From: an uncultured Hyphomicrobiales bacterium
Lineage (GTDB): Bacteria > Pseudomonadota > Alphaproteobacteria > Rhizobiales > Beijerinckiaceae
Reading direction: 5' to 3'
NCBI GenBank assembly: GCA_903884435.1
Contig: CAISEY010000300.1
Span: forward strand, 1-55,209
Length of the DNA: 55,209 nucleotides
Shown here: positions 9,265 through 38,134 of the stretch, one piece after another
Layout of the letters: the number at the start of each line of letters is the position of its first letter
Position numbering within the stretch: the stretch's first letter is position 1
Made by a program: the position numbers and the translations under genes
The notes under the pieces: generated by a model
What the model was told of the DNA's origin: nothing
Seen by the model: only the letters and a program-made list of their open reading frames with translations
The model's database searches: none

Positions 9265-10296
9265 CTATGGCGGGCCCGCCAGAATAGCCTTGAAACGCGC
9301 GACCGCCGCCGTGTCGAACGCGACCACGCGCCGCGCGAGGCCAGCGATTTCCGCGCCGCTCTTCGGCAGCATTTCCTCCATGGCGCGGTGGCCGTCGGCG
9401 AGAAAGTCGCCGTCCTTCGTCATCGCGTCGAAGGCGGCGCGCAGGGTCTCGACGCGATCCGCGGGCGCGCCCGGCGGCGCCGCGAAAGGCCGGCCGATTT
9501 CCGCTGTCAGGGACAAAAACTCGAAGACGCGCCGCGCCTCCTCCACGCCCGCGAGGTCGATGAACCGCGGAACGTTCGGCAAGTCCGGATCCTTGTTGAG
9601 TCCCGTCTGCGCCAGCAACACGATCTCGCCCGAGGCGATCCAGTCCGGCCGCGTCGCCTTGAGCTGACCCCAGGGAAAGGCGCCGCGCCCCTGAACCTCG
9701 CCCCGCTCGATCGCGAGGTTGATGTCGTTGGCGCCATTGTATCCGGTGACGATCTTGAACCGGGTGCCCAGCAAACGGTTGGCGAGCGCCGGAAAAACGA
9801 AGTTTTGCGCGGTCACGCCCGTCGATCCGATGGTGACTTCCTTCGTCTTCGCCTCGTCCATGGAGGCGACGCCGGCCCCGCGCCGCACGGCGAACACGTC
9901 GGTCGGGGTGATCGGACTGCCGAGAAAATTGAATTTCGCGACATCGTATCGAACGCCGCCCTCGCCAATCGCTTGGCCCATCGCCACGGTCTGCAACAGG
10001 CCAGCGATGGTCGAACCGTCCCTGGGCGCCACGTTGTAGAGATAGTTGGCGCCGACGCGGCCAGAGGCGCCCGGCATGTTCTCGACGACGATTTTCGGAT
10101 TGCCCGGCACGAACCTGCCGAGGTGGCGCGCCACGAGACGCCCGGCGGAATCGTAGCTTTCCCCCGAACCGGCCGAGACGATCAGCCGGATCGTCGCGCC
10201 CCTGTAAAAATCCGTCGCGGGTTGCGCGCGCGATCCGGAGCCGGAGGCGGCGAAGCCAAGCAAAGCAAGCGAAAGCAGCCGAACGCCCATCGCCAT
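9265..10296 (-). CDS. TctC/Bug-family solute receptor, last gene of the eight-gene operon
   Basis: A 343-residue periplasmic receptor. The signal peptide ends ...GSRAQPA, then comes TDFYRGATIRLIVSAGSGESYDSAGR, where the usual GGGxD glycine run of the family is replaced by GSGES; the loop VVENMPGASG and VTGYNGANDINLAIERGEVQGRG are normal. An altered phosphate/carboxylate-binding loop may mean a different ligand group. It lies 21 bp after the UbiD gene and ends the long minus-strand operon starting at 17779. The ATG at 10296 is adjacent to GGGG; ATG 10290 two codons later has better ribosome-site spacing and may be the true start. Confidence 0.88.
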   Translation of the reverse strand: MAMGVRLLSLALLGFAASGSGSRAQPATDFYRGATIRLIVSAGSGESYDSAGRLVARHLGRFVPGNPKIVVENMPGASGRVGANYLYNVAPRDGSTIAGLLQTVAMGQAIGEGGVRYDVAKFNFLGSPITPTDVFAVRRGAGVASMDEAKTKEVTIGSTGVTAQNFVFPALANRLLGTRFKIVTGYNGANDINLAIERGEVQGRGAFPWGQLKATRPDWIASGEIVLLAQTGLNKDPDLPNVPRFIDLAGVEEARRVFEFLSLTAEIGRPFAAPPGAPADRVETLRAAFDAMTKDGDFLADGHRAMEEMLPKSGAEIAGLARRVVAFDTAAVARFKAILAGPP

Positions 10297-10317
10297 CCCC
10301 CGAAGCGCGAAGTTCGC

Positions 10318-11790
10318 TTATTTATCGAGAAAACTGACTTTCCCCGCCCATTTCCTGGCGATCTCCTCGGAATATTCCTTCGGGATCTGGTTTACCTTGG
10401 GGAATGAATCCTTCCACGCGAACGGACGCACCGCGTAGATGATGATGCGGCTGTTGGTCAGATCCTCGCGCTCACGGCGTTCCGGCAACAACATGGGATC
10501 GATGTAGCCGGTCCACATTCCGTCGATGATGTCGGTCGCCGTCTTCGGATCCCAGCGCGTGCCCACGGCCCACATGACTTCCGCCGGATTGGTGATGTCG
10601 ATGTCGTCGTCGACGATGATGGTGATGCGGCCAAGGTAGCTCGCCGAGCCGCAACCGATGGCGACGAGGCCCGCCATCTTCGCGTGGCCCGCGTGCATCT
10701 GCTCGATGGCGATGACGTTGATGAAGCGCGAGCCGCCGCCCGGCATCTTGAACACGCCCTTGACGCCCGGCACGCCCGCCGCCTCGAGTTCGTCCCAGAG
10801 GGACGCCGCGCGCATCAGCGCCGAGCCCGCGGTGCCGAAATAGGTGCCGGGGAACGTCGGTCGCGCCGGCGGCGACGCGGTCATGATGGGATCGTCGCGG
10901 TGATAGATGGCCTTCACCTGCAACACGGGTTCGGGACCCGTCGCCGCGTAATAGCCGGGCCATTCGCCGAAGGGCCCCTCGATCATCGTGAGTTCCTCCG
11001 GCGAGGGCATGAAACCTTCGTAGACGAGTTCGCAATCGTTCGGGAAGGGAATGCCGGTGATCTTGCCCTTGACGAGTTCGATGGCGCGGCCGATGCGCCC
11101 GCCCGCCGCCGCGAATTCGGTGACGTTCTCGGGGAATGTCTGCGCCGACACCGCGCCGAGCGCCGGCGCCTGCCCGACGCTGATGACCATCGGGCAATGT
11201 TCGCCGCGCGCCCAGTATTTCTTGCGGATGATGTCCGCGTGCTTGCCCGGCTCGATGAAAATGCTGAGCGTGCGCTCGTCGCGAACGGAGACGCGGTAGG
11301 TGCCCGAATTCACCCAGTCGCCATCCGGATCCTTCGTGATCACCATGCATTCGGTGCCGATGTACTGGCCGCCGTCGCCCGCGTGCCATTTCGGCGCGGG
11401 AAAGGCGAGAATGTTGACCTGGTTTCCGGTGAGCACGTTCTCCATCACCGGACCGGTCTCGACATGCACGGGCGGAATCGGCTCCGAGCTCTTGCGCTTT
11501 CCCTTGCGGAAGCTGCGCACGAGATCGAGCCCGATTCCGCCGTTGAACACGCGCGACGCCCGCGTGTTGACGACGACGCGATGATTGTCGGGATAGCCCT
11601 TGATCTTGCGAAACAGCAACACCGGCGGCACCGGCTTTTGCAGGCTCAACTCGTAGAGCGCGCCCATTTCGAGATCCGGGTCGGCGCCCTCGATGATGTC
11701 GAGTTCCCCGATCTCACCGGCGACCTCGATGGCCTTGCGAATGTCGCCCAGCGCGGCGATGCGCGTTTCTTCGTCAACCAGCTTCGACAT
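10318..11790 (-). CDS. UbiD-family (de)carboxylase
   Basis: A 490-residue cytoplasmic enzyme of the UbiD family, which uses prenylated FMN to decarboxylate or carboxylate aromatic and unsaturated acids. Family landmarks: GTYR at residues 163-166 and EGPFGEWPGY at 271-280, where E271 and E276 correspond to the catalytic glutamates of the Glu-Arg-Glu network, plus the C-terminal ITIIVDDDIDITNPAEVMWAV and TNSRIIIYAVRP. Length is normal for the family. It follows a mini-cupin by 48 bp and precedes a TctC gene by 21 bp. No UbiX flavin prenyltransferase is in the window, so the cofactor must come from elsewhere. A paralogue lies at 33663-35126. Confidence 0.93.
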   Translation of the reverse strand: MSKLVDEETRIAALGDIRKAIEVAGEIGELDIIEGADPDLEMGALYELSLQKPVPPVLLFRKIKGYPDNHRVVVNTRASRVFNGGIGLDLVRSFRKGKRKSSEPIPPVHVETGPVMENVLTGNQVNILAFPAPKWHAGDGGQYIGTECMVITKDPDGDWVNSGTYRVSVRDERTLSIFIEPGKHADIIRKKYWARGEHCPMVISVGQAPALGAVSAQTFPENVTEFAAAGGRIGRAIELVKGKITGIPFPNDCELVYEGFMPSPEELTMIEGPFGEWPGYYAATGPEPVLQVKAIYHRDDPIMTASPPARPTFPGTYFGTAGSALMRAASLWDELEAAGVPGVKGVFKMPGGGSRFINVIAIEQMHAGHAKMAGLVAIGCGSASYLGRITIIVDDDIDITNPAEVMWAVGTRWDPKTATDIIDGMWTGYIDPMLLPERREREDLTNSRIIIYAVRPFAWKDSFPKVNQIPKEYSEEIARKWAGKVSFLDK

Positions 11791-11838
11791 AAAACTTCCC
11801 TGTGCGCGGCGCCGCCGCCCGATGAACGCGTTCGCGGA

Positions 11839-12354
11839 TCAGCTTTCCTTGAAGTCCGGCGAGGTCTCTTTCTGCTCGAGATCGCTGGCGAGATATTCCT
11901 GCATGGGCGTGTGAATGAACGCCGCCCAGACCGCCGGCGTCGTCGGATCGAGATTGAAATGCTGATGCTCGACGCCGCCCGGCTTCAGCGCCAGCAACAC
12001 GAGATCGCCCTTCTTCCAGTCGACGCGCTCGCCATCGACGATGGAATAGCCGACGCCGGACACCACGTAGATCACGAGGCCGCCCTGGTGGACGTGGCGG
12101 CCGGACTTGGTGCGGATTTCGTGGGTGAACACGCGCCAGTGTTGCAGCGGCGTGTCCTTGAAGCTCACGGGATCGAGGAAGAAGCGCAACTTGCCCTGCC
12201 GCGCCTGGAAATACGGACGATCGTCCGCGCGCAACACGACGGGGCCGTTCTGGTTGCGCTCCTTCATCGCCTTGCGATAGCGCATGACGGATTCGTAGGG
12301 ATTGTCGCCAATCGGCGGGCGCTCGCGTTCGCGCGTTCTTTCAATCTCGGCCAT
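11839..12354 (-). CDS. Small cupin protein, metal site partly conserved (mini-cupin 1)
   Basis: A 171-residue single-domain cupin without a signal peptide. The first cupin motif reads SGRHVHQGGLVIYVVSG: both histidines are present but the usual metal-ligating Glu position is Leu. The second motif ends GGVEHQHFNLD. That leaves a possible three-His site. It is clearly paralogous to the mini-cupin at 14542-15051 (for example RQGKLRFFLDPVSFKDT against RQGLMRWYLHPSIKDT), and both share the HFN ending with the bicupin at 25970. Its ATG at 12354 lies 14 bp inside the Cdc48-like ATPase gene, so the two are translationally linked. The substrate is unknown; a dioxygenase, isomerase or regulatory subunit role is possible. 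Confidence 0.82.
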   Translation of the reverse strand: MAEIERTRERERPPIGDNPYESVMRYRKAMKERNQNGPVVLRADDRPYFQARQGKLRFFLDPVSFKDTPLQHWRVFTHEIRTKSGRHVHQGGLVIYVVSGVGYSIVDGERVDWKKGDLVLLALKPGGVEHQHFNLDPTTPAVWAAFIHTPMQEYLASDLEQKETSPDFKES

Positions 12355-14539
12355 TGGAACTCTCTCCCTTGTGGAACACGCGCGACAGGCGCAACGCCTC
12401 GAGCGCGTCCTCGCGCGTGGGCGCGGCGGCGCGCGTGAACCCGGTCTTGCGGATGGCGATGCGCTTGGCCTCGTCGCAGAGGTGGCGCAGATCGGCGCCC
12501 GAATAGCCTTCGGTCATCGGCGCCAGCGTCTGGACGACGTCGTCGAGTCCTCCGGCGGCTTCCGCCGCCTTCGAGCGCAGACAGATGCGCAGGATTTTCG
12601 CGCGCGTTTCCTCGTCGGGCATGCCAACGGGAATGTGCAGGCCGAACCGGCCCGGACGCAGGATCGACGGATCGATCAGATCGATTCGGTTGGTCGCGCC
12701 AATGACGACCACCCGCGACAATTGCTCGACGCCGTCGAGTTCGGCGAGAAGCTGGCTGACGACGCGATCCGCCGTCATCGAGCCGATGTTCTGGCCGCGC
12801 ACCGGAGCGATCGATTCGAGCTGGTCGAAGAAGATCACGGCGGGCGCCACCTGCCGCGCGATGCGGAACACCTGGCGGATGCCCTCCTCGGATTCGCCCA
12901 GCCACTTGGTGAACATTTCCGGCCCGTCGACCGAAATGAAGTTCACCCCGCACTCGTTGGCGATGGCCTTGGCGAGCAGAGTCTTGCCCGTGCCCGAGGG
13001 CCCGTGCAGCAACATGCCGACATGCGGCGGCAGGCCGCTCGCGGTCAGCAGCCCCGGATTGCGCAACGGCAGTTCAACGGTTTCCTGCAAGCGTTTCTTC
13101 ACGTCCTCGAGGCCGCCGATGTCGCTCCAGGCCACGTCGGGAACACTGATGAGGGTTTCACGCAGGGCCGAGGGCCGCGTCTGCGCCAGCGCGGTCTCGA
13201 AGTCTTCCTTCTCGACGCGCAGATCCTCGACGGGAATGCGGAAGGCGGCGCGGTGATCCTGCAAATTGCCGGCGCTTCGACGCAGCGCGCTGAGGCCCGC
13301 GTCGCGGCAAAGCTCCATCATGTCCGCGCCGAGATAGCCGTGCGTGCGCCGCGCCACTTCGTCGAGATAGCGCAGGGCGTCGTCGGAAAGCGGCATTTCA
13401 CGCGTCTGGATGGTGAGAATTTCGCGGCGTCCCGGAGCGTCGGGCGGACCGATGAAAACCTCGCGGTCGAAGCGACCGGGACGGCGAAACGCCGGATCGA
13501 CGGCGTCGACGCGGTTCGTCGTGCCGATGATGACGACGGAATCGACGCGCTTCAATCCATCCATCAGCGACAGCAATTGCGTGACGGTCCGAATATCCGC
13601 CTGGGATCCCGTTTCGCCGCGCTTCGGCGCCATGGCGTCGAGTTCGTCGATGAAGATGATCGATGGCGCGTGATGGCTCGCCTCCGAGAACATGCGGCGA
13701 AGGTTCGCCTCGGTCTCGCCGGTGTAGGTGCCGATCACGTCGGGACCGTTGATGTAGTAGAAGCGCGCGTCCACCTCGTTGGCGACGGCGCGCGCCAGAT
13801 GCGTCTTGCCGGAGCCCGGAGGCCCGTAAAGAATGATGCCGCGCGGCGCGTTGATGCCGAGATGGCGATAGACGTGCGGATGTTTCAGCGGAAGCTGCAC
13901 GAGCTCGCGGATGAGCTTGATCTGCGTGTTGAGACCGCCCACGTCCTCGTAGGTGATGTCGAAGGCGCCGTCGGGAATGTGCGAGTCGTGATAGTGCAGC
14001 ACGATGTCGGTGTCTTCGGTCACGAGACCGGGGCCGTCGGGCGTCTTGTGGACTTCGTAGGTCGTGCCGGCGTGCGAGTTCTGGAAGGGAATGTAGAGAA
14101 TCGCGCCCTGGCTCGCGGGCGTGCGGCTCTCGACCAGCATTTTCTTCAGGTGCGGCACGAGGTCGTGCGCCATCGACACGTCGACGGCGGGCAGCAGCTC
14201 CAGCTTCTTCAACGGCTGCAAGTCCGCGCGCTCGATCTCGATGTCCTCGTTGAGATGCGCCTTGAGCGCCTGCCGCGCGAAACGGTCGAGGCGGATGATC
14301 TTGTGCCCCCTGTCCGCGTCGTTCGGCTCGCCGAGCCGCACGATCAGCGAGCGGCCGCGGTCGGTCGCGATCCGCACGGTGTCGCCGACCCCGGCGTCGA
14401 GCAGTTTCATCAGGTCGGCGTCGAGCTTGATGATCAGCCGGGCGCCGAGCGACTGTTCGTTGGCGAGGTGGTCGACGGTGGCGTGCGCGTGCGCCTTGCC
14501 GCCGTGCGTGTGGGCGTGCCCGTGATGCGTTTCGGCCAT
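12341..14539 (-). CDS. Cdc48/VAT-like double AAA+ ATPase
   Basis: A 732-residue protein with full Cdc48 architecture: a His-rich N-terminal tail (residues 1-24), a double-psi beta-barrel N domain (about 30-115), a second N subdomain (about 120-185), AAA D1 (Walker A GPPGSGKT at 239-246, Walker B IIFIDE at 294-299, sensor GTTNRVD) and AAA D2 (Walker A GPSGTGKT at 513-520, Walker B VIFFDQ at 568-573, sensor GATNRID). D1 is canonical. In D2 the catalytic Walker-B Glu is Gln (codon CAG at 12823-12821), the same change used to trap ATP in engineered AAA mutants. The C terminus lacks a proteasome-docking HbYX motif. It lies between two paralogous mini-cupins (2-bp gap and 14-bp overlap). Probable role: remodelling or activating an enzyme complex made by this operon. 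Confidence 0.93.
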   Translation of the reverse strand: MAETHHGHAHTHGGKAHAHATVDHLANEQSLGARLIIKLDADLMKLLDAGVGDTVRIATDRGRSLIVRLGEPNDADRGHKIIRLDRFARQALKAHLNEDIEIERADLQPLKKLELLPAVDVSMAHDLVPHLKKMLVESRTPASQGAILYIPFQNSHAGTTYEVHKTPDGPGLVTEDTDIVLHYHDSHIPDGAFDITYEDVGGLNTQIKLIRELVQLPLKHPHVYRHLGINAPRGIILYGPPGSGKTHLARAVANEVDARFYYINGPDVIGTYTGETEANLRRMFSEASHHAPSIIFIDELDAMAPKRGETGSQADIRTVTQLLSLMDGLKRVDSVVIIGTTNRVDAVDPAFRRPGRFDREVFIGPPDAPGRREILTIQTREMPLSDDALRYLDEVARRTHGYLGADMMELCRDAGLSALRRSAGNLQDHRAAFRIPVEDLRVEKEDFETALAQTRPSALRETLISVPDVAWSDIGGLEDVKKRLQETVELPLRNPGLLTASGLPPHVGMLLHGPSGTGKTLLAKAIANECGVNFISVDGPEMFTKWLGESEEGIRQVFRIARQVAPAVIFFDQLESIAPVRGQNIGSMTADRVVSQLLAELDGVEQLSRVVVIGATNRIDLIDPSILRPGRFGLHIPVGMPDEETRAKILRICLRSKAAEAAGGLDDVVQTLAPMTEGYSGADLRHLCDEAKRIAIRKTGFTRAAAPTREDALEALRLSRVFHKGESSNGRD

Positions 14540-14541
14540 GA

Positions 14542-15051
14542 TTATTTCTTGTACTCCGGCGCGTCTTCCATCTGCTCGAATCCCGAGCCGCGATCAACCG
14601 TGACGCAATCGAACCAGTTCGGCTCCGCCGCCACGAATTTCGCCGGCTTGTCCTTGCTGGCGTTGAAGTGCTGCACGATGATCCCGTCCGGACGCAGCGG
14701 CAGGTTGACCACGTCGCCCTCTTTCCACGGATGACGCACGCCGTCGAGGATCGTGTAGCCCTCGCCCTCGATGATCATCAGCACCTGGCCGCCCTGGAAC
14801 TTCACGCGACCCGAGCGGCTGCCCGGCGGGATTTCCTGTTCGAAGAACAGCATGGTGTTGAGCACCGTGTCCTTGATGGAGGGATGCAGATACCAGCGCA
14901 TCAGCCCCTGGCGATTGGTCTCCTGCGGGAGATCGTCGTCGCGCACGACCTGGATGGCGTCCTTCATCTGCTCGCGCTGCCGATCCCGAAGCGCGAGAAT
15001 TTCACCCCAGTGGTCCGTCTTCGCCAGCCGCTCCTTGCGTTCACTCGCCAT
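14542..15051 (-). CDS. Small cupin protein with degenerate metal site (mini-cupin 2)
   Basis: A 169-residue single-domain cupin, paralogous to the mini-cupin at 11839-12354. Where the paralogue has HVHQGGL, this one has VKFQGGQ, so both first-motif histidines and the Glu are absent; only the last His (VQHFN) remains. The beta-barrel sequence is otherwise well kept (GEGYTILDGVRHPWKEGDVVNLPL). A non-catalytic partner subunit or a binding protein is therefore more likely than an enzyme. It ends 2 bp before the ATPase ATG, and 123 bp separate it from the amidohydrolase upstream, the widest gap in the operon, where a separate promoter may lie. No signal peptide. Confidence 0.82.
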   Translation of the reverse strand: MASERKERLAKTDHWGEILALRDRQREQMKDAIQVVRDDDLPQETNRQGLMRWYLHPSIKDTVLNTMLFFEQEIPPGSRSGRVKFQGGQVLMIIEGEGYTILDGVRHPWKEGDVVNLPLRPDGIIVQHFNASKDKPAKFVAAEPNWFDCVTVDRGSGFEQMEDAPEYKK

Positions 15052-15101
15052 TCATCGCCTCCCGTGTCGAAGTCGTCCGGCTCGCCGGACGGGTCCGCGA
15101 C

Positions 15102-15131
15102 AGTATGGCGCGCCGGGGGGCGGCGCGTCCA
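15102..15131 (-). promoter_or_regulatory. Candidate internal promoter ahead of the mini-cupin/ATPase genes
   Basis: On the minus strand: TGGACG (15126-15131), 18-bp spacer, CATACT (15102-15107), about 50 bp upstream of ATG 15051, in the largest gap of the operon. A GTCCGG-CTCG-CCGGAC hairpin (15075-15090) lies in the leader just downstream. This could allow cupin-ATPase-cupin to be expressed apart from the upstream genes. Moderate consensus match only. Confidence 0.3.
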
Positions 15132-15174
15132 CTGGCGCGTGAAAATTTTTGAACCCGCGGAAATCCGCCGCCCG

Positions 15175-16326
15175 TCAGAGCCTCGTGTAGAGCTTGCGCG
15201 CGTTGCCGGCGAGGATCGCCTTCTGCATGTCCTCGGGAATCTGGTCGGGATGTTCGACCACCCAGTTCGCCGGGTCCATGGTTTGGTGCGGCCAGTCCGT
15301 GGAGAAGCAGAACAGATCCTTCGCGTGACAGAGTTCCAGCATCCAGCCGAAGTGTTTCGGATTTTTCGGGATGGTGATCGGCTGGGTCGAGAAGCGCACG
15401 TTCTCGAGGATGTACTCGCTCGGCAGCTTGTTGAGATAACGCTCGCCCGCCGCCAGCTTGCGCTCGACGAGCGCGATGTCGCCCGGCGCGCTCACGTAGA
15501 AATCATCGACGCGCAGCATGAAGTCGGAGAGCCACCAGACTCCCCCCTCCTGAAACAGGATTTTCTGCTTCGGATACTTGTCGAACAGGCCCTGCACGAT
15601 CATCGCGGCGAGATGCACGATGCAATTGGCGATGGGCGCGTTGCCGAACAGTTCGATCCAGGTGCGCGCGCCGTTGAACAGCGGCGTGAAATGATTGAAC
15701 CAGCCCCCGCTGTGCGCGGTGAGCACGAGATCGAAGTCGCGCATGGCGTCGAAGATCGGATCGAACCGCGCGTTGCCCATCTGCTCGTAGAGCGCGCTGA
15801 ATTCGCTGAACACGCCGACGAATTGCGGATGATGGCCGACGCGCCTGATTTCCTCGGCCGCCATCCCGGGGTTGCGCTGGCACACCATGATGTTGCCCTT
15901 GATGCGCGGCGAGACCGGAAAAACCTCCCGGATCATGTAATCGTTGTGCGCCGCGCAGAAGGCTGCCAGCACCGGCTCGCTGAACACGCTCATCGGGCGG
16001 TTGTAGCCCGGATTGAGAATTACCGTGTCGGTGCCGAACTGGTCGAGAACGCGCAGCACCTCGGCTCCGGTTCCCGCCGTGCCATGCGCGTCCTGGCCAA
16101 CGCCCGGCTTCTCGTTCGCCGGCTCGGGATTGTATTCGAGGCCGACCGCCGGATAGTGCCAGATGCGGCTCTTGAAGGGTTCTTTCAGGTAATTCCGGAT
16201 CACCGGCCACGGCGGCGAAAAGTGAAAATCCGTGTCGATCACCTCCATCTTGCGAATTTTGGGATTGATCGGATCGGGATTGACGGCTTTCGCGGCCTGG
16301 TAGCCGCCGTGCGACGCTTCGTTCAT
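15175..16326 (-). CDS. Amidohydrolase_2 (ACMSD-like) family metal-dependent hydrolase/decarboxylase
   Basis: A 383-residue cytoplasmic TIM-barrel enzyme. Family members hydrolyse or decarboxylate aromatic-derived acids (ACMSD, gamma-resorcylate decarboxylase, LigJ/LigY types). Metal and catalytic positions are visible: DTDFHF at 31-36 (the usual HxH is here D-F-H), TAHSGG (H205), FQEGGVWW (E260) and FSTDWPH (D344). It follows the Rieske ferredoxin gene by 24 bp, the same order and nearly the same spacing as the paralogous pair at 40739-42224. Decarboxylation or hydrolysis of a ring-cleavage product or aromatic acid is the likely role; the substrate is unknown. Confidence 0.9.
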   Translation of the reverse strand: MNEASHGGYQAAKAVNPDPINPKIRKMEVIDTDFHFSPPWPVIRNYLKEPFKSRIWHYPAVGLEYNPEPANEKPGVGQDAHGTAGTGAEVLRVLDQFGTDTVILNPGYNRPMSVFSEPVLAAFCAAHNDYMIREVFPVSPRIKGNIMVCQRNPGMAAEEIRRVGHHPQFVGVFSEFSALYEQMGNARFDPIFDAMRDFDLVLTAHSGGWFNHFTPLFNGARTWIELFGNAPIANCIVHLAAMIVQGLFDKYPKQKILFQEGGVWWLSDFMLRVDDFYVSAPGDIALVERKLAAGERYLNKLPSEYILENVRFSTQPITIPKNPKHFGWMLELCHAKDLFCFSTDWPHQTMDPANWVVEHPDQIPEDMQKAILAGNARKLYTRL

Positions 16327-16350
16327 GACGGTCCCTCTGTCTGTGTGGGC

Positions 16351-16659
16351 TCAGGCGGTCAGGATGAGATGACCATCCTCGGCGCGGACGGGATAGGTGC
16401 GAATCGTTTCGGTCGGATCGAGCATGTTGCGCCCGGTCGCCAGATCGAAGGTCCAGTTGTGCCATGGACAGCGAATCGTCGCCCCGCCATCGGCGATGGC
16501 GCCGTCGCACATCGAGGCGCCGCGGTGCAGGCACTTGTTGGCCACCGCGAAGAACTTCCCGTTGGAGCGGAACACCGCGACGGTGCGCGTCCCCGCCTCG
16601 AAGGCGCGGCCCTTGCCCTCGGGGATTTCGTCCTGTTTGCAGAGGAGATAATCGGTCAT
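16351..16659 (-). CDS. Rieske [2Fe-2S] ferredoxin
   Basis: A 102-residue stand-alone Rieske protein. Cluster ligands are C43-x-H45 (CLHRGASMCDG) and C64-x2-H67 (CPWHNW). Such ferredoxins usually shuttle electrons from a reductase to a Rieske oxygenase, but here the neighbour is an amidohydrolase. No reductase or large oxygenase subunit is in this operon; the nearest Rieske oxygenase is at 24699-25871. The paralogue at 40739-41047 has identical ligand positions and the same amidohydrolase neighbour, so the pairing is conserved after duplication. It lies 19 bp after the bicupin gene. Confidence 0.93.
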   Translation of the reverse strand: MTDYLLCKQDEIPEGKGRAFEAGTRTVAVFRSNGKFFAVANKCLHRGASMCDGAIADGGATIRCPWHNWTFDLATGRNMLDPTETIRTYPVRAEDGHLILTA

Positions 16660-16678
16660 TCGATATCCGTTGGCGTTG

Positions 16679-17779
16679 TTATCCGGCGGCGGGCCGGAGC
16701 TGTCGCGACGGCGCGCGGGGGCTCGTCTCGTCCTCGGTCCGATAAAAGCCGAAGGCCAAGAGGATCGGAGAATCCGAGAGATTGATCAGCACCGCGGCCT
16801 CGCTCTTCGAGCGATTGACGAAGCGGCGCCAGGTCCAGTTGGGCGTCACGAGGGAATCGTGCGTGTCCCAGTCGATTTCGCCATCGGCGAAGACGGTGCG
16901 CCCCTCCCCGCGCACGACGAAGGACATCGAGCTCGCGGTCTCCCTGTGAAACCCGCCCTCGAAACCGGGCGGCAACACCTGCGCTGTAACGTGAATCGTC
17001 GGCAGGATCGGCCCGTTGGTGAGCGGATTGACATAATCGATCACCCGACCGCGCCGCGGATCGGGCGTCTCGCCCGCGCCCGCCGCGATCTGCCGCTCCA
17101 TGTCGCTCCACGCGTAGCGGTAAGGGCGCGCGTCGTCGGCGGGCTTGCCCGCGGCGCCCCGCATCAACGGCGAGAAGGTCGCGTCGTCGCGCGCGACGGG
17201 TTGAGCCACGTCGCCGTAGTCCTCGTAGAAATTCTGGTTGGTCGCCAGCGTGAAGGGTACGTCGAGCGCGTCGAGCCACACGGCGTCCTCGCCGCTCTGA
17301 TTGTGGTGATCATGCCAGGTCCAGCCTGGCGTGAGCAGCACGTCGTAGGGATGCATCGCCAGCGGGCGGCCATTGACGATGGTGAACACCTCCGGCCCGC
17401 CCTTGATGGCGACGCGCAAGGCGTTGATCATGTGCCGGTGCGCCCAGCAGACTTCGCCGGCGCGCACGATTTGCAGGGTCGACAGCATCGTGTGCGTCGT
17501 GCCCCGGGGCAGTTTCGGATTGGTGAAAATCAGCGCGCGGCGGGCCGTCTCGCTCTCCGGCATGGCCTCGCAGGCCTCGCGAAGAAACGGCTGCATGTCC
17601 TTCCAGCGCCAGACGTGCGGAACGCCCGATGGCGTCGGCTGGATGTAGAGATTGCCGTCGGCGTTCTTGCCGACGCTTTGCGGACGATTGGCGTCCGCCT
17701 GCCACTGCCCGCGCAAGTTGAAGGCGGCGATCCTTCTTTCGAACTCGAGGAGGCGCGGCGATGACGCGGCCGTCTCCAT
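16679..17779 (-). CDS. Gentisate 1,2-dioxygenase-like bicupin, first gene of the eight-gene operon
   Basis: A 366-residue cytoplasmic protein of the gentisate/salicylate/1-hydroxy-2-naphthoate dioxygenase family, which opens aromatic rings with an Fe(II) held by three His. The N-terminal cupin has the full set: HRH at 114-116 and WHDHH at 155-159. The C-terminal cupin is degenerate (GFHRETASS and NWTWRRFVN), as is usual for gentisate dioxygenases. Residues NLRGQWQ near the N terminus are shared with the paralogue at 30436. The ATG follows GGGGGGAA. A strong promoter lies upstream. The true substrate could be gentisate or another hydroxylated aromatic acid. Confidence 0.9.
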   Translation of the reverse strand: METAASSPRLLEFERRIAAFNLRGQWQADANRPQSVGKNADGNLYIQPTPSGVPHVWRWKDMQPFLREACEAMPESETARRALIFTNPKLPRGTTHTMLSTLQIVRAGEVCWAHRHMINALRVAIKGGPEVFTIVNGRPLAMHPYDVLLTPGWTWHDHHNQSGEDAVWLDALDVPFTLATNQNFYEDYGDVAQPVARDDATFSPLMRGAAGKPADDARPYRYAWSDMERQIAAGAGETPDPRRGRVIDYVNPLTNGPILPTIHVTAQVLPPGFEGGFHRETASSMSFVVRGEGRTVFADGEIDWDTHDSLVTPNWTWRRFVNRSKSEAAVLINLSDSPILLAFGFYRTEDETSPRAPSRQLRPAAG

Positions 17780-17795: not shown

Positions 17796-17834
17796 AATTG
17801 CCTCCCGCGTCGCGTGAAGCGCCGCCTGGCAATT
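17796..17834. promoter_or_regulatory. Inverted repeat overlapping the operon -10 region (possible operator)
   Basis: AATTGCC (17796-17802) and GGCAATT (17828-17834) are a perfect 7-bp inverted repeat with a 25-bp spacer. The right arm overlaps the -10 of the minus-strand promoter and the left arm lies in its leader, a position suited to a repressor. No regulator gene lies beside it. Confidence 0.35.
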
Positions 17835-17861
17835 GTAGGGCGCGCGCGACGGTGGCGTCAA
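17832..17861 (-). promoter_or_regulatory. Strong candidate sigma-70 promoter of the eight-gene minus-strand operon
   Basis: On the minus strand: TTGACG (17856-17861), 18-bp spacer, TACAAT (17832-17837). Each hexamer matches the consensus at five of six positions. The expected transcript starts about 45 bp upstream of the bicupin ATG at 17779. Confidence 0.6.
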
Positions 17862-24698: not shown

Positions 24699-25871
24699 TC
24701 AGGCCGACGCGCCGCCCTGTCTTGGCAATTCGGCCTCGCGCGCCGCCCGGCGCCAGATCTTGGGCGGTTCTCCCGCCCGGATCGCCTCGATCTCGCGCTG
24801 CATGATGCGGCGCAACAACACGATGCCGGCGTCGGACTTGCCGAGTCGTTCATGCTCCCGATCGGCGATCGCGCCCTGCCCCATGATCGCGACGTAATCC
24901 TGCGCCGGCGTCAGTTGCAGCGATGGATCGGAAGGCCAGCCGCGGCCCTCGAACAGCGCGTCGTGATGTTCGGCCGGATTGTAATCGCCATGCGCGTCGA
25001 AATGCGCGAGCGTTTCGGCGTCCGCCTCCGGCCCCTCGGAGGGGATCGCGTAAACGCCGAATTTCAGCGTGTGCGTGTCGTCGACCGGCACGTTCCAGAC
25101 GCCGCGATGAACCCAGGGAGAGTCCTTGCGACGACCCGGCGTGACGATGTGATTGTTGTTGGGAAAGCTCCAGTCGCTGATTCGCACGTTGCCGGGTCCG
25201 CGCGTCGCGATCTGCCGGATGCCGGAATCGGTTTCGACATATTCCAGCGTCGGAATATTCGCCGTCACCGCCTCGCCGAACGGGCCCACTTTACCCGCGA
25301 GGTGGACGAAACTGACGTGAACCGCGTCGAGCGAATTCTCGATTTGCTGGAGAAAATTCATCGGCCAGATCTGCTCGCGCGCGATCACGAGCAGGCCCGG
25401 CCTCTCGAATTCCGCCTTGCGCGGCAGTTCGAACGCCGGCGGCTCGCCCTCGCCCATCCAGGCGAAAATCAGCCCGCAATATTCATGCAGAGGATAGGAG
25501 ACGACGCGTATCCTGGCGGCGGTCTCGTCGCCTTCCGCCGGCGCCTCGGTGCATTGTCCCGAGCCCGCGAATTTCCAGCCATGATAGATGCAGCGAACTT
25601 CCTCGCCCTGCACCCAGCCCGTGTGCAGCAGCGTGCGCCGGTGCGGACAACGCCCGGCGACGAGATACGGCTTTCCGCTCGCGCCGCGATAAAGCGTCAG
25701 GTCCTCGCCAAGAACCCTCAGGGCGCGCGCCTTGCCGGCTTCGAGCTTCGCGCCAACAGCCACCGGTTGCCAGAAGCGGCGAAGCAGCCTGCCCATGTCG
25801 GACTCAGGACCGCAGGACGCGAGCCGCGCCAGCCGTTCCACGTTCGTCAGGGGCGTTCCTTTGCCGCTCAT
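24699..25871 (-). CDS. Rieske non-heme iron oxygenase alpha subunit (phthalate-dioxygenase type)
   Basis: A 390-residue cytoplasmic oxygenase. The Rieske domain has C75-x-H77 (CPHRR) and C94-x2-H97 (CIYHGWKF). The catalytic domain has the mononuclear iron motif D182-x2-H185-x4-H190 (NSLDAVHVSFVH). The sequence type, with no small beta subunit nearby, fits the phthalate dioxygenase/vanillate demethylase/carnitine oxygenase group, which hydroxylate or demethylate aromatic acids using a separate reductase. ATG 25871 follows GGGAGGA and opens at the conserved N terminus; an in-frame upstream start is unlikely. No reductase is next to it. It is co-directional with the extended TctC gene. Confidence 0.92.
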   Translation of the reverse strand: MSGKGTPLTNVERLARLASCGPESDMGRLLRRFWQPVAVGAKLEAGKARALRVLGEDLTLYRGASGKPYLVAGRCPHRRTLLHTGWVQGEEVRCIYHGWKFAGSGQCTEAPAEGDETAARIRVVSYPLHEYCGLIFAWMGEGEPPAFELPRKAEFERPGLLVIAREQIWPMNFLQQIENSLDAVHVSFVHLAGKVGPFGEAVTANIPTLEYVETDSGIRQIATRGPGNVRISDWSFPNNNHIVTPGRRKDSPWVHRGVWNVPVDDTHTLKFGVYAIPSEGPEADAETLAHFDAHGDYNPAEHHDALFEGRGWPSDPSLQLTPAQDYVAIMGQGAIADREHERLGKSDAGIVLLRRIMQREIEAIRAGEPPKIWRRAAREAELPRQGGASA

Positions 25872-25900
25872 GAAGTCCTCCCGCGCGCGTCGCGCGGTCC

Positions 25901-25915
25901 AAGAATTCCATTCTT
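25901..25915. promoter_or_regulatory. Palindrome in the divergent Rieske oxygenase/bicupin interval (possible operator)
   Basis: AAGAAT-TCC-ATTCTT is a perfect 6+6 bp inverted repeat, AT-rich in a GC-rich setting, centred in the 98-bp interval between two divergent gene starts. It suits a dimeric repressor or activator controlling both. No regulator gene is adjacent. Confidence 0.4.
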
Positions 25916-25969
25916 TGAAGCGCCTGTCGAGATATGTTATCCGGACTGACAATCGATCAGGAGGACGCC

Positions 25970-27082
25970 TTGGCGAAGGATGCGATCGTCTCGAACGAAC
26001 TCGCGGAAAAATTCGCGAGGGAAAAGGACACGCCCTATCTGCGCTGGGTGCGGAGCCAGGGCCTCGACATCGTCGACGCCCATTACGTGCGCAACCTGAA
26101 ACGCGCCGAACTGAAGTCCTGGGCGCGGCGCGGCGGCGCCGGCCTCTACATCAATCACGAGGCCTCTCGCACGACGAACGATTGCTATGTTTGCGAAATC
26201 CCCGCCGGCGGCAAGCTCGCGCCGCAACGCCAGCTTTACGAGGAGATGATCTACGTGCTCGACGGGCGCGGCTCGACGACCGTGTGGAACGGCGAGGGCA
26301 AGCGCGTCACCTTCGAATGGAAGGCGGGCGCCATCTTCGGCGTTCCCCTCAATGCCTGGCACCAGCATTTCAACGGATCGGGCCTGGCGCCGGCGCGGTT
26401 CGTCGCCGTCACCAACGCGCCGCCGGTGATCAATCTTTACGAGGACCTCGGCTTCGTTTTCGAAACCGACTACGATTTCAGGAGCCGGTTCGGCGGAGAG
26501 CCGGATTATTTCACGCGAGCCGGCGAGCAGAAGGGCCTGCGGCTCGAGACCAATTTCATTCCCGACACGGTGAACGTCGGCGTCGCTTCCAGCGCCGAAC
26601 GCGGCGCGGGCTCCGGCATGATCCGGTTCAACCTCGCGAAAGGCTCGATTGGCGGACACATCTCGCAATTTCCCGTCGGCACCTACAAGAAGGCGCACGC
26701 GCACGGGCCGGGCGCCCACGTCATCGTTCTCTCGGGCGAGGGCTATTCGCTCATGTGGCCGGAGGGCGAGGAGCCGCGCCGCTATGACTGGGAAACTGGC
26801 ACGCTGATCGTGCCGCCGAACGGGTGGTTTCACCAGCATTTCAACGCGGGTCCGACGCCCGCCCGCTATCTCGCCTTCAAGCACGGTTCGCAACGCAACG
26901 CGCAGGGCGTGATGATGTGCTGGATCAGCCGGAGGCTGGGCGGCGACCAGCTCGACTACGCCGACGAAAGCCCGAAAATCCGCGAGATATTCGCCCGCGA
27001 GCTCGGCAAGCATGGCCTCGCGCCGCGAATGGAGCCCGTCTACGAGAAGGAACTGGAGACGCTGCCGCCGCGGGTCGCCTGA
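25970..27082 (+). CDS. Bicupin protein, second type (metal site only in the C-terminal domain)
   Basis: A 370-residue two-cupin protein distinct from the gentisate-type bicupins. The first domain reads APQRQLYEEMIYVLDG, so the usual HxH is QRQ although Glu and the distal WHQHFN are kept. The second domain has KAHAHGPGAHVIVLSGEG and GWFHQHFN, a possible four-His metal site (H243, H245, H250, H288 or H290). The HFN endings link both domains to the two mini-cupins at 11839 and 14542. I take the TTG at 25970 as start, since AGGAGG lies 6 bp upstream; the ATG at 25934 has no ribosome site. It is divergent from the Rieske oxygenase. The reaction is unknown. Confidence 0.82.
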   Translation: MAKDAIVSNELAEKFAREKDTPYLRWVRSQGLDIVDAHYVRNLKRAELKSWARRGGAGLYINHEASRTTNDCYVCEIPAGGKLAPQRQLYEEMIYVLDGRGSTTVWNGEGKRVTFEWKAGAIFGVPLNAWHQHFNGSGLAPARFVAVTNAPPVINLYEDLGFVFETDYDFRSRFGGEPDYFTRAGEQKGLRLETNFIPDTVNVGVASSAERGAGSGMIRFNLAKGSIGGHISQFPVGTYKKAHAHGPGAHVIVLSGEGYSLMWPEGEEPRRYDWETGTLIVPPNGWFHQHFNAGPTPARYLAFKHGSQRNAQGVMMCWISRRLGGDQLDYADESPKIREIFARELGKHGLAPRMEPVYEKELETLPPRVA

Positions 27083-30435: not shown

Positions 30436-31395
30436 ATGCAACAATCGCCGCTCGAAACCTTCAACGAAAAGCTCGCCCGCTCGAACATGCGCGGGCAATG
30501 GCTGTCCGAGGGCTTTCTCAACGCCGCGATCGGCGGCCCGAAGCCCGCCGGCGTTCCCATGAAATGGACGTGGGCGACCGTCATGGAACACATGGCGGAA
30601 GCCGGCGAGGTCATGCGCGAGGCGAAACAGGCGCGCCGCTCCCTGCTCTTCCACAATCCCGGCCTGGCGCGCGGCGCCACGCACACGATCAACATGGGCG
30701 TGCAGATGATCGTGCCCGGCGAAACCGCCCGGGCGCATCGCCACTCCATCGCGGCCCTGCGCTTCATCATCGAGGGCGACGGCAAGCTCGAGACGATCAT
30801 CGACGGCGAACATTGCACGATGGAGGACTTCGATCTCGTGCTGACGCCCAACTGGTCGTGGCACGATCATCACAACAATTCGAACCGGCCGGTCTACTGG
30901 CTCGACGTGCTCGACGTGCCGCTCGTGCTCAATCTGAACCAGGCTTTCTACGAACCGGGAGCCGGCGAGGACCAGCCGGCCCTTCCGGCGGACTTCAGGC
31001 CGCACGCGCGATTGCGCTACGCGTGGCGCGACACGGAGCCGAAATTGCGCGCGGCGCCGCTCGACCCGCACGACGGCCATCGCTTCGACTACCTCAATCC
31101 GGAGACGGGCGGCCCCACGATGTCGACGCTCTCGTGCCACGCCTTGTTGCTGCCGCCGGGCTTCGAGGGCGCCTCGCGGCGTCGCACGTCGAGCGCGGTC
31201 TATTTCGTCGTCCGCGGCGAGGGCGTTCTGGAAGCCGGCGACCAGAAAATTCCCTTCGGCAGGAACGACAGCCTGGTCGCGCCGAACTTCGCGCGCACGC
31301 GCCTCGTCAACACCTCGAAGACGAACGACGCGGTTCTGTTCAGCGTCGAGGACACGCCGGTGCTGAGAGCGCTGGGATTTTATCGGGAGGGGTGA
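30436..31395 (+). CDS. Gentisate 1,2-dioxygenase-like bicupin
   Basis: A 319-residue cytoplasmic bicupin, the closest of the three to classical gentisate dioxygenases. The first domain has H101 and H103 (ARAHRHSIAALRFIIEG) and WHDHH (H143), with NMRGQWLSEGF near the N terminus. The second domain keeps the barrel but not the metal ligands (ASRRRTSSAVYFVVRGEG, NFARTRLVN). It sits between the two NMT1-like/TctC units, 18 bp after the first, and is paralogous to the leading gene of the minus-strand operon at 16679. Ring cleavage of a hydroxylated aromatic acid is likely. Confidence 0.9.
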   Translation: MQQSPLETFNEKLARSNMRGQWLSEGFLNAAIGGPKPAGVPMKWTWATVMEHMAEAGEVMREAKQARRSLLFHNPGLARGATHTINMGVQMIVPGETARAHRHSIAALRFIIEGDGKLETIIDGEHCTMEDFDLVLTPNWSWHDHHNNSNRPVYWLDVLDVPLVLNLNQAFYEPGAGEDQPALPADFRPHARLRYAWRDTEPKLRAAPLDPHDGHRFDYLNPETGGPTMSTLSCHALLLPPGFEGASRRRTSSAVYFVVRGEGVLEAGDQKIPFGRNDSLVAPNFARTRLVNTSKTNDAVLFSVEDTPVLRALGFYREG

Positions 31396-31412
31396 GGCCC
31401 GGGCTCCGTTTC

Positions 31413-31441
31413 TGGACAAGCCCGGGGCGCTCTGCCATCAT
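31413..31441 (+). promoter_or_regulatory. Candidate promoter for the second NMT1-like/TctC/UbiD unit
   Basis: TGGACA (31413-31418), 17-bp spacer, CATCAT (31436-31441), 32 bp upstream of ATG 31474. The same layout, with GATCAT and the same GGGGCGC tract in the spacer, occurs before the Rieske gene at 40739. Confidence 0.4.
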
Positions 31442-31473
31442 TCCGCGACATCAAGACACACTGGAGGACGTCC

Positions 31474-32571
31474 ATGGACCACGTGAATTTTCCCTATCGC
31501 TCGAGCAGCCATCTCACCTTCCTGCACGTCGTGGCTGAATCGGGCGCGTGGGAAAAGCACGGGCTTCGCGTCGATTACGACAAGAAGATTTCCTCGACCG
31601 AGGCGCACCGCGCCGTGCCGGCCGGCGAAGTCGAATTCGTCGGCGGCAACCATGTCTCGACCTATGGCCACCGCGCCCGCGGCGACAGCTGGGTCTATCT
31701 CGGGCAGACCGTCAACAAGGTTCATTCCAAACTCGTCGTGCGGCCGGATTCGGGCATCAACGGATTCGCCGACCTGCGCGGCAAGGTGGTGGGAACCCGC
31801 GGCTCGCATCCGGGGCTGAACGACTGGCTGCAACTGAAACAGCGCGGCCTCGATGTCGATCGCGACGACGTGCAACTCCTCAACATGCTCAAGCACAAAA
31901 AGGGGCAGATGGACGACGAGGCCAACACGCAGGACGAGGAGCGCCAGCCGCTGTGGCACTGGGTTCGCGACCGCAAGGTGGACGCGGCCCTGATGACGCC
32001 GCCGGCGCATCTCTTCGCCGAGGCCGCCGGCCTCAAGGTGATCGACATCGACGCCATGCCGATGATCTGGTTCACCACGATTTCCTCGAGCCTCGGCTTC
32101 GTCGCCCGCCATCCCGACATCGTCGAGCGGTTCATCAAGGGCCTGGTCGAGGGCGTGCATTTCTTCAAGACGCAGCCGGAAAAATCCATCGAGATCATCC
32201 AGCGCCGCTACACGAAGGAAGGCCAGCTCAACCACGCGCAAGCCACCTATATCTGGCAGGGCCTCGCGCCGCTGCTCGAACCGAAGCTCTATCCCTCCAT
32301 GGCGGCCATCGCCAACGTCTACGAGGAGGCCAAGCGCCAGGACAAGGACGCGCTGAAGGTCAATCCGCTGGAATTGTGGGACACGCACCACATCCGTCGC
32401 GTCGATGATTCCGGGTTCGTCGACGCGCTCTACGGCAACGCGCCGCTCGCCGCGCACAAGGACGCCGCCGATCCGGAATACAAGCGGGAGAAGGCGAAGA
32501 AGCAGGAAGACATGATCGCCGCGGTGAAGGCCTGCGGCCATCTCGCCGGCGTCGATTGCGATTGCCACTGA
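31474..32571 (+). CDS. NMT1-like binding-protein-fold protein without signal peptide, Cys/His tail (copy 2)
   Basis: A 365-residue paralogue of the protein at 28245, alike along nearly its whole length (for example FVGGNHVSTYGHRARGDSWV and SMAAIANVYEEAKR). The start MDHVNFPYRSSSHLTFLHVV follows GGAGGA, and again there is no signal peptide. The charged insert near residue 140-160 differs in sequence (KHKKGQMDDEANTQDEER), while the C-terminal KACGHLAGVDCDCH keeps the CGH-x5-C-x-C pattern, so the Cys/His tail is under constraint and the insert is not. It is 20 bp upstream of its own TctC partner. Function unknown; a cytosolic ligand- or metal-dependent role is inferred. Confidence 0.85.
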   Translation: MDHVNFPYRSSSHLTFLHVVAESGAWEKHGLRVDYDKKISSTEAHRAVPAGEVEFVGGNHVSTYGHRARGDSWVYLGQTVNKVHSKLVVRPDSGINGFADLRGKVVGTRGSHPGLNDWLQLKQRGLDVDRDDVQLLNMLKHKKGQMDDEANTQDEERQPLWHWVRDRKVDAALMTPPAHLFAEAAGLKVIDIDAMPMIWFTTISSSLGFVARHPDIVERFIKGLVEGVHFFKTQPEKSIEIIQRRYTKEGQLNHAQATYIWQGLAPLLEPKLYPSMAAIANVYEEAKRQDKDALKVNPLELWDTHHIRRVDDSGFVDALYGNAPLAAHKDAADPEYKREKAKKQEDMIAAVKACGHLAGVDCDCH

Positions 32572-32590
32572 CGGGCGGCGGGAGAGCCAC

Positions 32591-33637
32591 ATGAGAACGG
32601 CCTTCGCCGCCTTCGCTCTGGCTCTCCTCGTCGTCCCCGCGCGCGCGCAGCAGCCGGCGGCTTTCTTCGAGGGCAAGTCGCCGGTCATGCTGATCGGCTT
32701 CGCGCCGAGCGGCGGCACCGATCTCACGGGGCGCCTCATCGCGCAATTCATCGCGAAACACCTGCCCGGCGCGCCCGCGTTCGTCGTGCGCAACATGCCC
32801 GGCGCCGACGGCCTCACCGCCGGCAAGGTTTTCGCCTCGCAAGTCGCGCCGGACGGACTGACGATCACCATGGGCGCGAGCACGCAGGCCGATCCGCTGC
32901 ATTATCGCAAGCCGCAGGCCGGATTCGACCCGACGAAATTCATTCTCGTTGGCGGCATCGGCCGCGGCGGCACGGTGACGATCGTCAACCGCGAGGCGGA
33001 AAAGCGCCTGTACGACAAGTCGGCGCCGCCGGTCGCGATGGGCTCCCTCAGCGGACTGCCCCGCTCCGGCATGCAAATGACGGCCTGGGGCATCCGGTTT
33101 CTCGGCTGGAACGCGCGCTGGGTGCTGGGCTATCCCTCGACGGTCGAATTGCTCACCGCGCTGGAGCGCGGCGAAATCGACATGACGGCCGAAGGAGGCC
33201 TTCACAACATCGCCAAATTCGCCCGCGATCCGCGCTTCCGCCTTCTCGTGCAGTCGGGCGCGCTCGAGGGCGGCCGCCAGGTTCCGCGCCGCGAATTTGG
33301 CGACACCGCGCTGTTCGCCGACCTGATGGACGGCAAGATCACGGATGACATTCAGGCCAGGGCTTTCGCTTACTGGACATCCATCGCGACCATCGACAAA
33401 TGGGTGGCGCTGCCGCCGGCGACGCCGCGACCGATCGTCGACATGTATCGAGACGCCTGGTCGAAGGTGATGCGCGATCCGCAATTCGTCGAGCAGGGCA
33501 AGCGCCAGAGCGAGGATTTCACGCCCATGCCTCACGAGGACGTGAGTCTGCTGATGACGACGCTGGGCGCGACGCCGCGGGCCTCGCTCGACTTCATCAA
33601 TGAAATGTTCCGGCAACAGGGGCTCGAGGCGCAATGA
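32591..33637 (+). CDS. TctC/Bug-family solute receptor (pair with copy 2)
   Basis: A 348-residue periplasmic receptor with signal peptide MRTAFAAFALALLVVPARAQ, the opening AAFFEGKSPVMLIGFAPSGGTDLTGR and the loop VVRNMPGADG. It is closely related to the protein at 29374-30417, including SGxPRSGMQMTAWG and IDKWVALPPATPRP. It lies between the copy-2 NMT1-like gene and the UbiD gene. The two receptors of this duplicated unit form their own subgroup within the eleven TctC proteins, suggesting related ligands. Confidence 0.9.
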   Translation: MRTAFAAFALALLVVPARAQQPAAFFEGKSPVMLIGFAPSGGTDLTGRLIAQFIAKHLPGAPAFVVRNMPGADGLTAGKVFASQVAPDGLTITMGASTQADPLHYRKPQAGFDPTKFILVGGIGRGGTVTIVNREAEKRLYDKSAPPVAMGSLSGLPRSGMQMTAWGIRFLGWNARWVLGYPSTVELLTALERGEIDMTAEGGLHNIAKFARDPRFRLLVQSGALEGGRQVPRREFGDTALFADLMDGKITDDIQARAFAYWTSIATIDKWVALPPATPRPIVDMYRDAWSKVMRDPQFVEQGKRQSEDFTPMPHEDVSLLMTTLGATPRASLDFINEMFRQQGLEAQ

Positions 33638-33662
33638 ACGCCCGGGCATTCAGGAGAATCAA

Positions 33663-35126: not shown

Positions 35127-35132
35127 GCCGCG

Positions 35133-35157
35133 GCGGCGGGTGGCGCGCGCCCGCCGC
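35133..35157 (+). terminator. GC-rich hairpin after the UbiD gene
   Basis: GCGGCGGG (35133-35140) pairs with CCCGCCGC (35150-35157) across a 9-nt loop, starting 6 bp after the stop codon. There is no T-tract, so it may be a Rho-dependent end or a 3' stabilising stem. Confidence 0.35.
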
Positions 35158-35323
35158 GCCCCCGCCAGGGCCGGCCGTCGCCGGAGACGAAATCCGCGGT
35201 GCGACAACGGGTCCGCCTTGTCAGGGAGTCGGATAAGGACCAGGCTTGTCGAGGGTCGGGAATCGCCGGGCGGCGAAGGCAAACAACAAACGCCTCGTTC
35301 GCCGGCTACGGAGGTAATCGCCG

Positions 35324-38107: not shown

Positions 38108-38134
38108 CCGCGTCGTTCGCCGACGATGGAGCGG

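Follow-up and report, generated by a model that had tools for sequence, protein, structure and literature searches.

What is a Cdc48-like, double-ring AAA+ ATPase (ATPases associated with diverse cellular activities) doing in the middle of a bacterial operon of aromatic-acid type, wedged between two small cupin genes? The operon lies on a 55,209-nucleotide (nt) contig of an uncultured Hyphomicrobiales bacterium (GenBank CAISEY010000300.1; this whole stretch is referred to as the window). Its source genome, G000, is a 5.3-Mb metagenome-assembled genome (MAG) of 461 contigs, with 93.5% completeness and 6.9% contamination, and the isolate names of related MAGs (e.g., Umea and Erken) suggest lakes. 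To our knowledge, most bacterial Cdc48-like proteins have not been assigned a client. An initial annotation of the window had proposed that the ATPase may assemble or reactivate one of the metal- or prenylated flavin mononucleotide (prFMN)-dependent enzymes of the operon. Our analysis retains a dedicated remodeling role as the best reading and points to another client, namely the two mini-cupins themselves, here termed cup1 and cup2. The three genes and the sequence elements at issue, with confidence of the structural models given as the predicted local distance difference test (pLDDT), are as follows:

14542..15051, minus strand: cup1, a mini-cupin without metal ligands (Cupin_2 match under the cut-off; model pLDDT 82)
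12341..14539, minus strand: Cdc48-like double-ring AAA+ ATPase (two AAA domains; best NCBIfam match CDC48, TIGR01243, under the cut-off)
14465..14539, minus strand: His-rich N-terminal extension of the ATPase, residues 1-25, ending HAHATVDHL (from sequence)
13643..13648, minus strand: Walker B acid pair D298-E299 of the first ATPase ring (D1), intact (from sequence)
12821..12826, minus strand: Walker B pair D572-Q573 of the second ATPase ring (D2), catalytic Glu replaced by Gln (from sequence)
11839..12354, minus strand: cup2, a mini-cupin with a putative gentisate-dioxygenase-type His site (H87, H89, H130, and H132; Cupin_2; model pLDDT 75)
12310..12354, minus strand: Arg/Glu-rich N-terminal tail of cup2, residues 1-15, a candidate handle for the ATPase (from sequence and model)

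The initial description of an ATPase locked between two paralogous mini-cupins agrees with the coordinates, in which cup1 and the ATPase gene are 2 nt apart and the ATPase gene overlaps cup2 by 14 nt, as well as with the 37% identity between cup1 and cup2. To follow the three genes beyond the window, profiles for each of them, built from loci already collected, were searched against 51 genomes of the genus (E <= 1e-180 for the ATPase, and E <= 1e-20 for cup1 and for cup2). The ATPase subfamily, cup1, and cup2 were each present in 9 of the 51 genomes, and the nine were identical for all three (G000, G007, G011, G017, G033, G045, G048, G049, and G050); at these cut-offs, none of the three families was detected in the other 42. 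Altogether, the nine genomes contain 10 ATPase, 21 cup1, and 25 cup2 genes (counted at a score of at least 280 bits for cup1 and at least 200 bits for cup2, and with a single gene counted for the ATPase of G011 and for that of G049, both of which seem to be divided between two contigs). The cup1 genes outnumber the ATPase genes in six of the nine, and the ATPase gene is single in eight. Four additional MAGs (L077-L080), found via the ATPase, likewise possess both cupins. At every one of the 14 ATPase loci, representing 13 genomes and including two loci split over two contigs, a cup1/cup2 pair is close to the ATPase gene. Because it is conserved at 14 loci, the triplet arrangement is not due to chance.

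We also surveyed two wider samples, comprising 396 other genomes of the order and 397 genomes of the phylum, with scoring of up to nine first-look candidates per genome for cup2 and up to two for the ATPase. No cup2 was found in the order sample (0/396; E <= 1e-20) or in the phylum sample (0/397; E <= 1e-12). Other Cdc48-like proteins were detected in both samples (7/396 and 16/397 genomes, respectively; E <= 1e-160; one genome belongs to both), and their best ATPase score was 622 bits, versus at least 1337 bits for complete subfamily members. Cdc48-like matches also occurred in 50 plasmid records, all below 60% identity (15 of the 50 listed), and cup2 matches in plasmids were weak (3 records). 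The contig scan relied on short exact peptide patterns and on the best 80 of 196 confirmed stretches, so that remote relatives can escape it. In the samples searched, no ATPase gene of this clade was seen away from a cup1/cup2 pair.

The ATPase contains two tandem Cdc48-type AAA modules (PF00004 in two stretches). Its score against TIGR01243 (714.7 bits) lies under the curated cut-off of 802.65, as does that of the CDC48 N-domain PF02359 (31.8 bits; cut-off, 35.1). The closest solved sequences are the VCP-like ATPase 5g4g, aligned over residues 37-632, and p97 chains, aligned over residues 36-699. When placed in a tree alongside nine other Cdc48-like proteins, 12 subfamily members formed one group (support, 100/100) on a long stem, and such long branches caution against naming the nearest relative of the subfamily. 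Of the 16 phylum-sample genomes with a match (G000 aside), 15 belong to one family of the same class, f56, in which a separate Cdc48-like group (L173-L181) is common. In the subfamily of the window, the D1 Walker B pair is D-E in all 14 sequences covered and the D2 pair is D-Q in all 14; the complete sequences retain Walker A and the arginine-finger region of D2. For comparison, we took 18 other Cdc48-like proteins, of which 7 came from the order sample and 9 (of 16) from the phylum sample, the last two being from a plasmid and an archaeon; all 18 read D-E in both rings. The same Glu-to-Gln change, E578Q, is a standard laboratory mutation of p97. The N terminus of the subfamily is rich in His, with 6 to 8 His among the first 30 residues in 14/14 sequences, versus 0 to 2 in the matching stretch of the 18 comparison proteins, and the extension ends in HxHxxVDHL in 14/14 (Ile for Val once). 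Metallochaperones such as HypB and UreE have His-rich segments that hold metal, and the N-terminal arm of the ATPase resembles these. Finally, Tyr272 in D1 and Trp546 in D2 are invariant in 12 aligned sequences, with a pore-loop role assigned by homology.

The two mini-cupins diverge from one another at the positions that matter for metal binding. All 28 cup2 sequences contain HxHxGG, and 27 contain [ET]HQH, the remaining one being cut by a contig end. The cup2 profile matched the dioxygenases 3BU7 (1.1e-19), 3NST, and 2PHD (both ~5e-9), with HxH aligned to HRH, and HQH to HGH or HEH, of gentisate/salicylate dioxygenases. In the salicylate enzyme, the aligned motifs hold the iron ligands H119, H121, and H160, plus H162. 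Judged by these motifs, cup2 is predicted to carry a three-His metal site of the gentisate-dioxygenase type. In cup1, HxH occurs in 0 of 25 sequences; all 25 also have Val, Ile, or Met in place of the first His of HQH, with the second His kept. By sequence, the pair thus reads as an active subunit and a putative pseudo-subunit. Both proteins score far under the TIGR02272 cut-off of 442.1 (20.4 bits for cup1 and 19.3 bits for cup2). They also co-diverge: among 23 pairs, without the L066 pair, whose cup2 is cut, the Mantel correlation was 0.84 and none of 5000 permutations was as high. An N-terminal R.RER tail is present in 26 of 28 cup2 sequences, another reads KERER, and the last, whose start is uncertain, is without the tail. 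The model assigns a pLDDT below 50 to residues 1-9 and 11-13, suggesting that the tail is probably flexible. The nearest Foldseek match of the cup1 model is 3BU7. Overall, the fold searches are neutral, returning generic cupins from whose modeled fold a substrate is not readable. Two further arrangements of these genes were observed, namely cup2-cup1-cup2 adjoining the ATPase gene in L064 (382-2035) and cup1-cup2-cup2 in L050 (contig C349 of G000).

A longer pair of cupins in the same genus (about 213 and 201 amino acids [aa]; 47 proteins at 24 loci, L018-L038, L063, L073, and L074) served as a comparison. HxH and HQH are both present in 47/47 of these proteins and the Arg/Glu tail in 0/47, two of them being cut before the N terminus. 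Twenty-one of the loci are in ATPase-less genomes, and L063, L073, and L074 are in ATPase-bearing ones. At L073, one member of the longer pair adjoins a Rieske-oxygenase-like gene.

Because of its linkage to the ATPase, the identical presence, and the paired sequence changes, the cup1/cup2 pair is the likely client of the ATPase. From the linkage, the co-occurrence, the motif losses and gains, and the clade status, which are direct observations, we infer a mechanism that, as a whole, we tentatively favor at somewhat less than an even chance: the ATPase would be a dedicated remodeler of the cup1/cup2 pair, with metal loading or reset as the outcome. In this mechanism, cup2, with its three-His site (presumably for iron), and cup1, as a metal-free pseudo-subunit, would assemble into a single hetero-oligomeric enzyme that is a relative of the gentisate/salicylate dioxygenases and acts in aromatic-acid catabolism. 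The ATPase hexamer would seize a flexible end of this cupin complex, most likely the Arg/Glu-rich N-terminal tail of cup2. D1, with its intact catalytic motifs and aromatic pore-loop residue Tyr272, would do the pulling, and D2 should bind ATP without hydrolyzing it, thereby providing a rigid platform or grip. A motor driven by D1 alone, next to a passive D2, would suit limited pulling rather than full threading. The partial opening could then allow the metal site to be filled, re-reduced, or freed from an inhibitor, and the His-rich extension may keep a metal ion close to the client. A single ATPase could serve several cupin pairs per cell, including pairs encoded elsewhere.

The alternative clients are encoded around the triplet. 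The operon comprises eight open reading frames, all on the minus strand, spanning 9265-17779 in the order bicupin, Rieske, amidohydrolase, cup1, Cdc48-like ATPase, cup2, UbiD, and TctC; thus, the eight-gene, same-strand layout of the initial annotation was confirmed by the coordinates, and its family names were borne out by Pfam and NCBIfam, several of them with scores under curated cut-offs. The five genes outside the triplet are:

16679..17779, minus strand: bicupin resembling gentisate/5-aminosalicylate 1,2-dioxygenase (Cupin_2; HRH and HDH motifs in the N-terminal half)
16351..16659, minus strand: stand-alone Rieske ferredoxin (PF00355, 2.1e-20)
15175..16326, minus strand: Amidohydro_2 family enzyme (PF04909, 7.2e-21)
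10318..11790, minus strand: UbiD-family decarboxylase (UbiD Rift domain, 176.4 bits versus a cut-off of 23.3)
9265..10296, minus strand: TctC-like solute-binding protein (TctC match under the family cut-off)

Gaps of 19 nt (bicupin/Rieske), 24 nt (Rieske/amidohydrolase), and 123 nt (amidohydrolase/cup1) lie on one side of the triplet, and gaps of 48 nt (cup2/UbiD) and 21 nt (UbiD/TctC) on the other. The bicupin scores under the curated cut-offs of NF049978 (230.7 versus 650 bits) and TIGR02272 (192.9 versus 442.1 bits). The source genome encodes 22 UbiD-family genes versus one UbiX, the latter outside the operon, i.e., this is a UbiD-rich bacterium. A sigma-70 promoter at 17832-17861, initially described as good, was dropped as evidence: it matches at 10/12 positions, and the single site found is not above the count in shuffled sequence (1.4 +/- 1.2).

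Comparison of the 14 ATPase loci demonstrates that the conserved unit is the ATPase plus the cupin pair, not the whole operon, and that the operon of the window represents one setting among several, which are gene sets of aromatic-acid type. Neighbors were counted from a tblastn table within the fetched stretch, with three Pfam-checked queries for the amidohydrolase, and contig ends conceal neighbors at L066, L078, and L067/L068. A UbiD gene is present at 7/14 loci, an Amidohydro_2 enzyme at 8/14 (a partial match at L060, ~7 kb off and on the other strand, was not counted), a Rieske ferredoxin at 5/14, and a larger gentisate-dioxygenase-like cupin at 8/14; six of these eight larger cupins were scored in NCBIfam and reached 192.9 to 246.8 bits, all under the cut-off of 442.1. 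The association with such catabolic genes held up, insofar as at least one of UbiD, amidohydrolase, and Rieske is found at 11/14 loci. The three loci with none are L066 (where the contig ends within cup2), L078 (an 11-kb contig), and L080. Four types of gene order could be distinguished: (i) bicupin-Rieske-amidohydrolase-cup1-ATPase-cup2(-UbiD) in the window, G011, G049 (UbiD not in sight), and L077; (ii) cup1-ATPase-cup2-UbiD in L058 and L060; (iii) flavin adenine dinucleotide (FAD) hydroxylase-larger cupin-cup1-ATPase-cup2 in L078-L080; and (iv) ATPase-TctC-like-cup1-cup2, with ATP-binding cassette (ABC) transporter, hydantoinase, or M24 genes nearby, in L066, L069, L071, and L072. L064 is a mixture of these types, and the hydroxylase, hydantoinase A, and M24 labels are based on one example each. 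UbiD was rejected as the defining partner, being near only 7 of the 14 loci. Because it is the constant partner (14/14 loci and the same nine genus genomes), the cupin pair is the likelier client. Of the initial proposal, a dedicated remodeling role of the ATPase stands as the best reading, whereas the choice of client among the other operon enzymes is not supported and is less likely than the cupins (UbiD at 7/14, amidohydrolase at 8/14, and Rieske at 5/14, versus cup1 and cup2 at 14/14).

That choice could still be correct if the cupins acted as adaptors or substrate-recognition subunits that deliver UbiD, the bicupin, a Rieske-dependent oxygenase, or the amidohydrolase to the ATPase. The frequency of these genes and of the larger gentisate-dioxygenase-like cupin at the ATPase loci speaks for such an arrangement, as does the absence of a metal site from cup1, which is what an adaptor might look like. 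However, no single candidate client occurs at more than 8/14 loci, and the HxH of the metal site, retained in every cup2, would be superfluous in an adaptor. Moreover, the cupins multiply into diverging pairs with a single ATPase in eight of nine genomes, as expected for enzymes with differing substrates. We therefore consider the adaptor explanation unlikely.

A further alternative is a ligand-gated unfoldase, in which binding of an aromatic acid or a metal to the cupin pair would control whether the Cdc48-like machine unfolds or degrades a regulator or transporter. Many pairs adjoin TctC-like or ABC transport genes, so that each pair may match one solute, and Cdc48-type machines do use adaptors. 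Yet, among the neighbors identified, which are not every neighbor, no regulator or protease common to the 14 loci was seen, and the metal site of cup2 matches those of catalytic dioxygenases, extra His included; we regard this explanation as quite unlikely. An ordinary stress chaperone that hitchhikes in a catabolic gene island, with no specific link to the cupins, would be in keeping with the sporadic occurrence of other bacterial Cdc48-like proteins in mixed surroundings (e.g., the one plasmid gene examined, from Sinorhizobium, which is near sugar-transport genes), but is very improbable given linkage to the pair across at least four gene settings, an identical presence pattern in 51 genomes, genes that overlap or sit 2 nt apart in the window, and subfamily-specific sequence changes in both partners.

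Several observations weigh against the ATPase being a dedicated remodeler of the cupin pair. In the nine genomes, 11 of the 21 cup1 genes are without an adjoining ATPase gene; their dependence on the ATPase in trans is assumed, and such pairs may not require it. The cup2 proteins encoded away from the ATPase also have the tail, which fits service in trans or other roles. Longer cupin pairs exist in the genus without any such ATPase, and at 28 to 43% identity to cup1 they are distant, so that their intact sites need not represent the ancestral state. The nine genomes are kin and represent fewer than nine independent events, and, with the profiles derived from the very loci they recovered and the extra MAGs found through the ATPase, our counts overstate the independent evidence. 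The cup2 model is of middling confidence (pLDDT 75), 3BU7 ranks only 48th in its Foldseek search, and neither 3BU7 nor any other gentisate dioxygenase was among the best 50 rows of VIA-align. The His-rich segment may be a storage or structural zinc element. Lastly, the gentisate dioxygenases known to us need no ATPase.

Elsewhere in the window, a second related set at 30436-42224 contains a gentisate-dioxygenase-like cupin, UbiD, a Rieske ferredoxin, and an amidohydrolase, and no mini-cupin pair was called there. In L064, relatives of this set accompany cup1/cup2 and the ATPase; in L061, they lack the cupin and accompany a pair that has no ATPase. Within 24699-27082, the gene for a Rieske oxygenase with a LigXa-like C terminus is divergent from a gene for a cupin protein at 25934-27082 (Pfam), and a close relative of this oxygenase (84% identity) precedes the operon in L053. 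Many apparent orphan solute-binding protein genes are scattered over 3065-50068, labeled mostly from reading alone. Among those put to Pfam, the gene at 8232 matched TctC over the cut-off, those at 7103 and 19592 were NMT1-like, those at 6069 and 9265 matched TctC under the cut-off, that at 27088 had a weak phosphonate-binding match, and that at 23407 had no match.

How, then, does the triplet compare with known systems? Its individual parts are known folds; what appears to be new is their combination, comparable to operon-encoded AAA+ activases of metabolic enzymes. The rubisco activases CbbX and CbbQO are encoded beside one metabolic enzyme and are thought to pull on a flexible end of it. 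The likeness is that of a remodeler gene adjoining the gene for its metabolic enzyme, but CbbX and CbbQO belong to another AAA+ clade and have another client, and we know of no inhibitor logic for the cupin system. Regarding the gentisate/salicylate 1,2-dioxygenases (3BU7 and 2PHD), the cup2 profile aligns over their His motifs and the cup1 model is nearest to 3BU7. In contrast, those enzymes have two cupin domains per chain, and here there are two genes, one of them ligand-less, plus an ATPase. NorQ/NorD is a MoxR AAA+/von Willebrand factor A (VWA) machine inserting iron into nitric oxide reductase, for which ATP-driven opening of the client for iron entry was proposed (PMC13036017). Of the systems described, this one comes closest in its logic, in that an AAA+ ring serves one metalloenzyme, but NorQ/NorD pairs a MoxR-class ring with a VWA partner, whereas the present ATPase is double-AAA and Cdc48-like, with a presumed cupin client. 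By Pfam, no VWA domain was matched in the eight operon proteins. Cpa, an actinobacterial Cdc48-like double-AAA protein, has strictly conserved D2 motifs and a mildly degenerate D1, and binds the 20S proteasome, and sporadic homologues in other bacteria fall in the archaeal cluster (PMC6017811). The present subfamily differs from Cpa in having an intact D1, a D2 with the Glu-to-Gln change, and cupin genes as neighbors. In open full-text literature, searched in part with the spelling "AAA ATPase" (which misses "AAA+ ATPase"), a split active/pseudo cupin combined with a Cdc48-clade ATPase, D2 Gln, and a His arm was not found among the papers listed. It is possible, although we would not call it likely, that the triplet represents a second, independent AAA+ solution to metalloenzyme activation, with a Cdc48-clade machine, a His arm, a D1 motor, a silenced D2, a purpose-built tail, a split cupin oxygenase, and service in trans.

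For a protein family so short of clients, this compact three-gene set names a candidate client and makes three predictions at the level of residues, i.e., the His-rich arm, the D2 Gln, and the cup2 tail. If true, the proposed mechanism would add a further type of AAA+ metalloenzyme activase to MoxR and the rubisco activases, and it could account for the lack of activity of some small cupin oxygenases that are expressed on their own.

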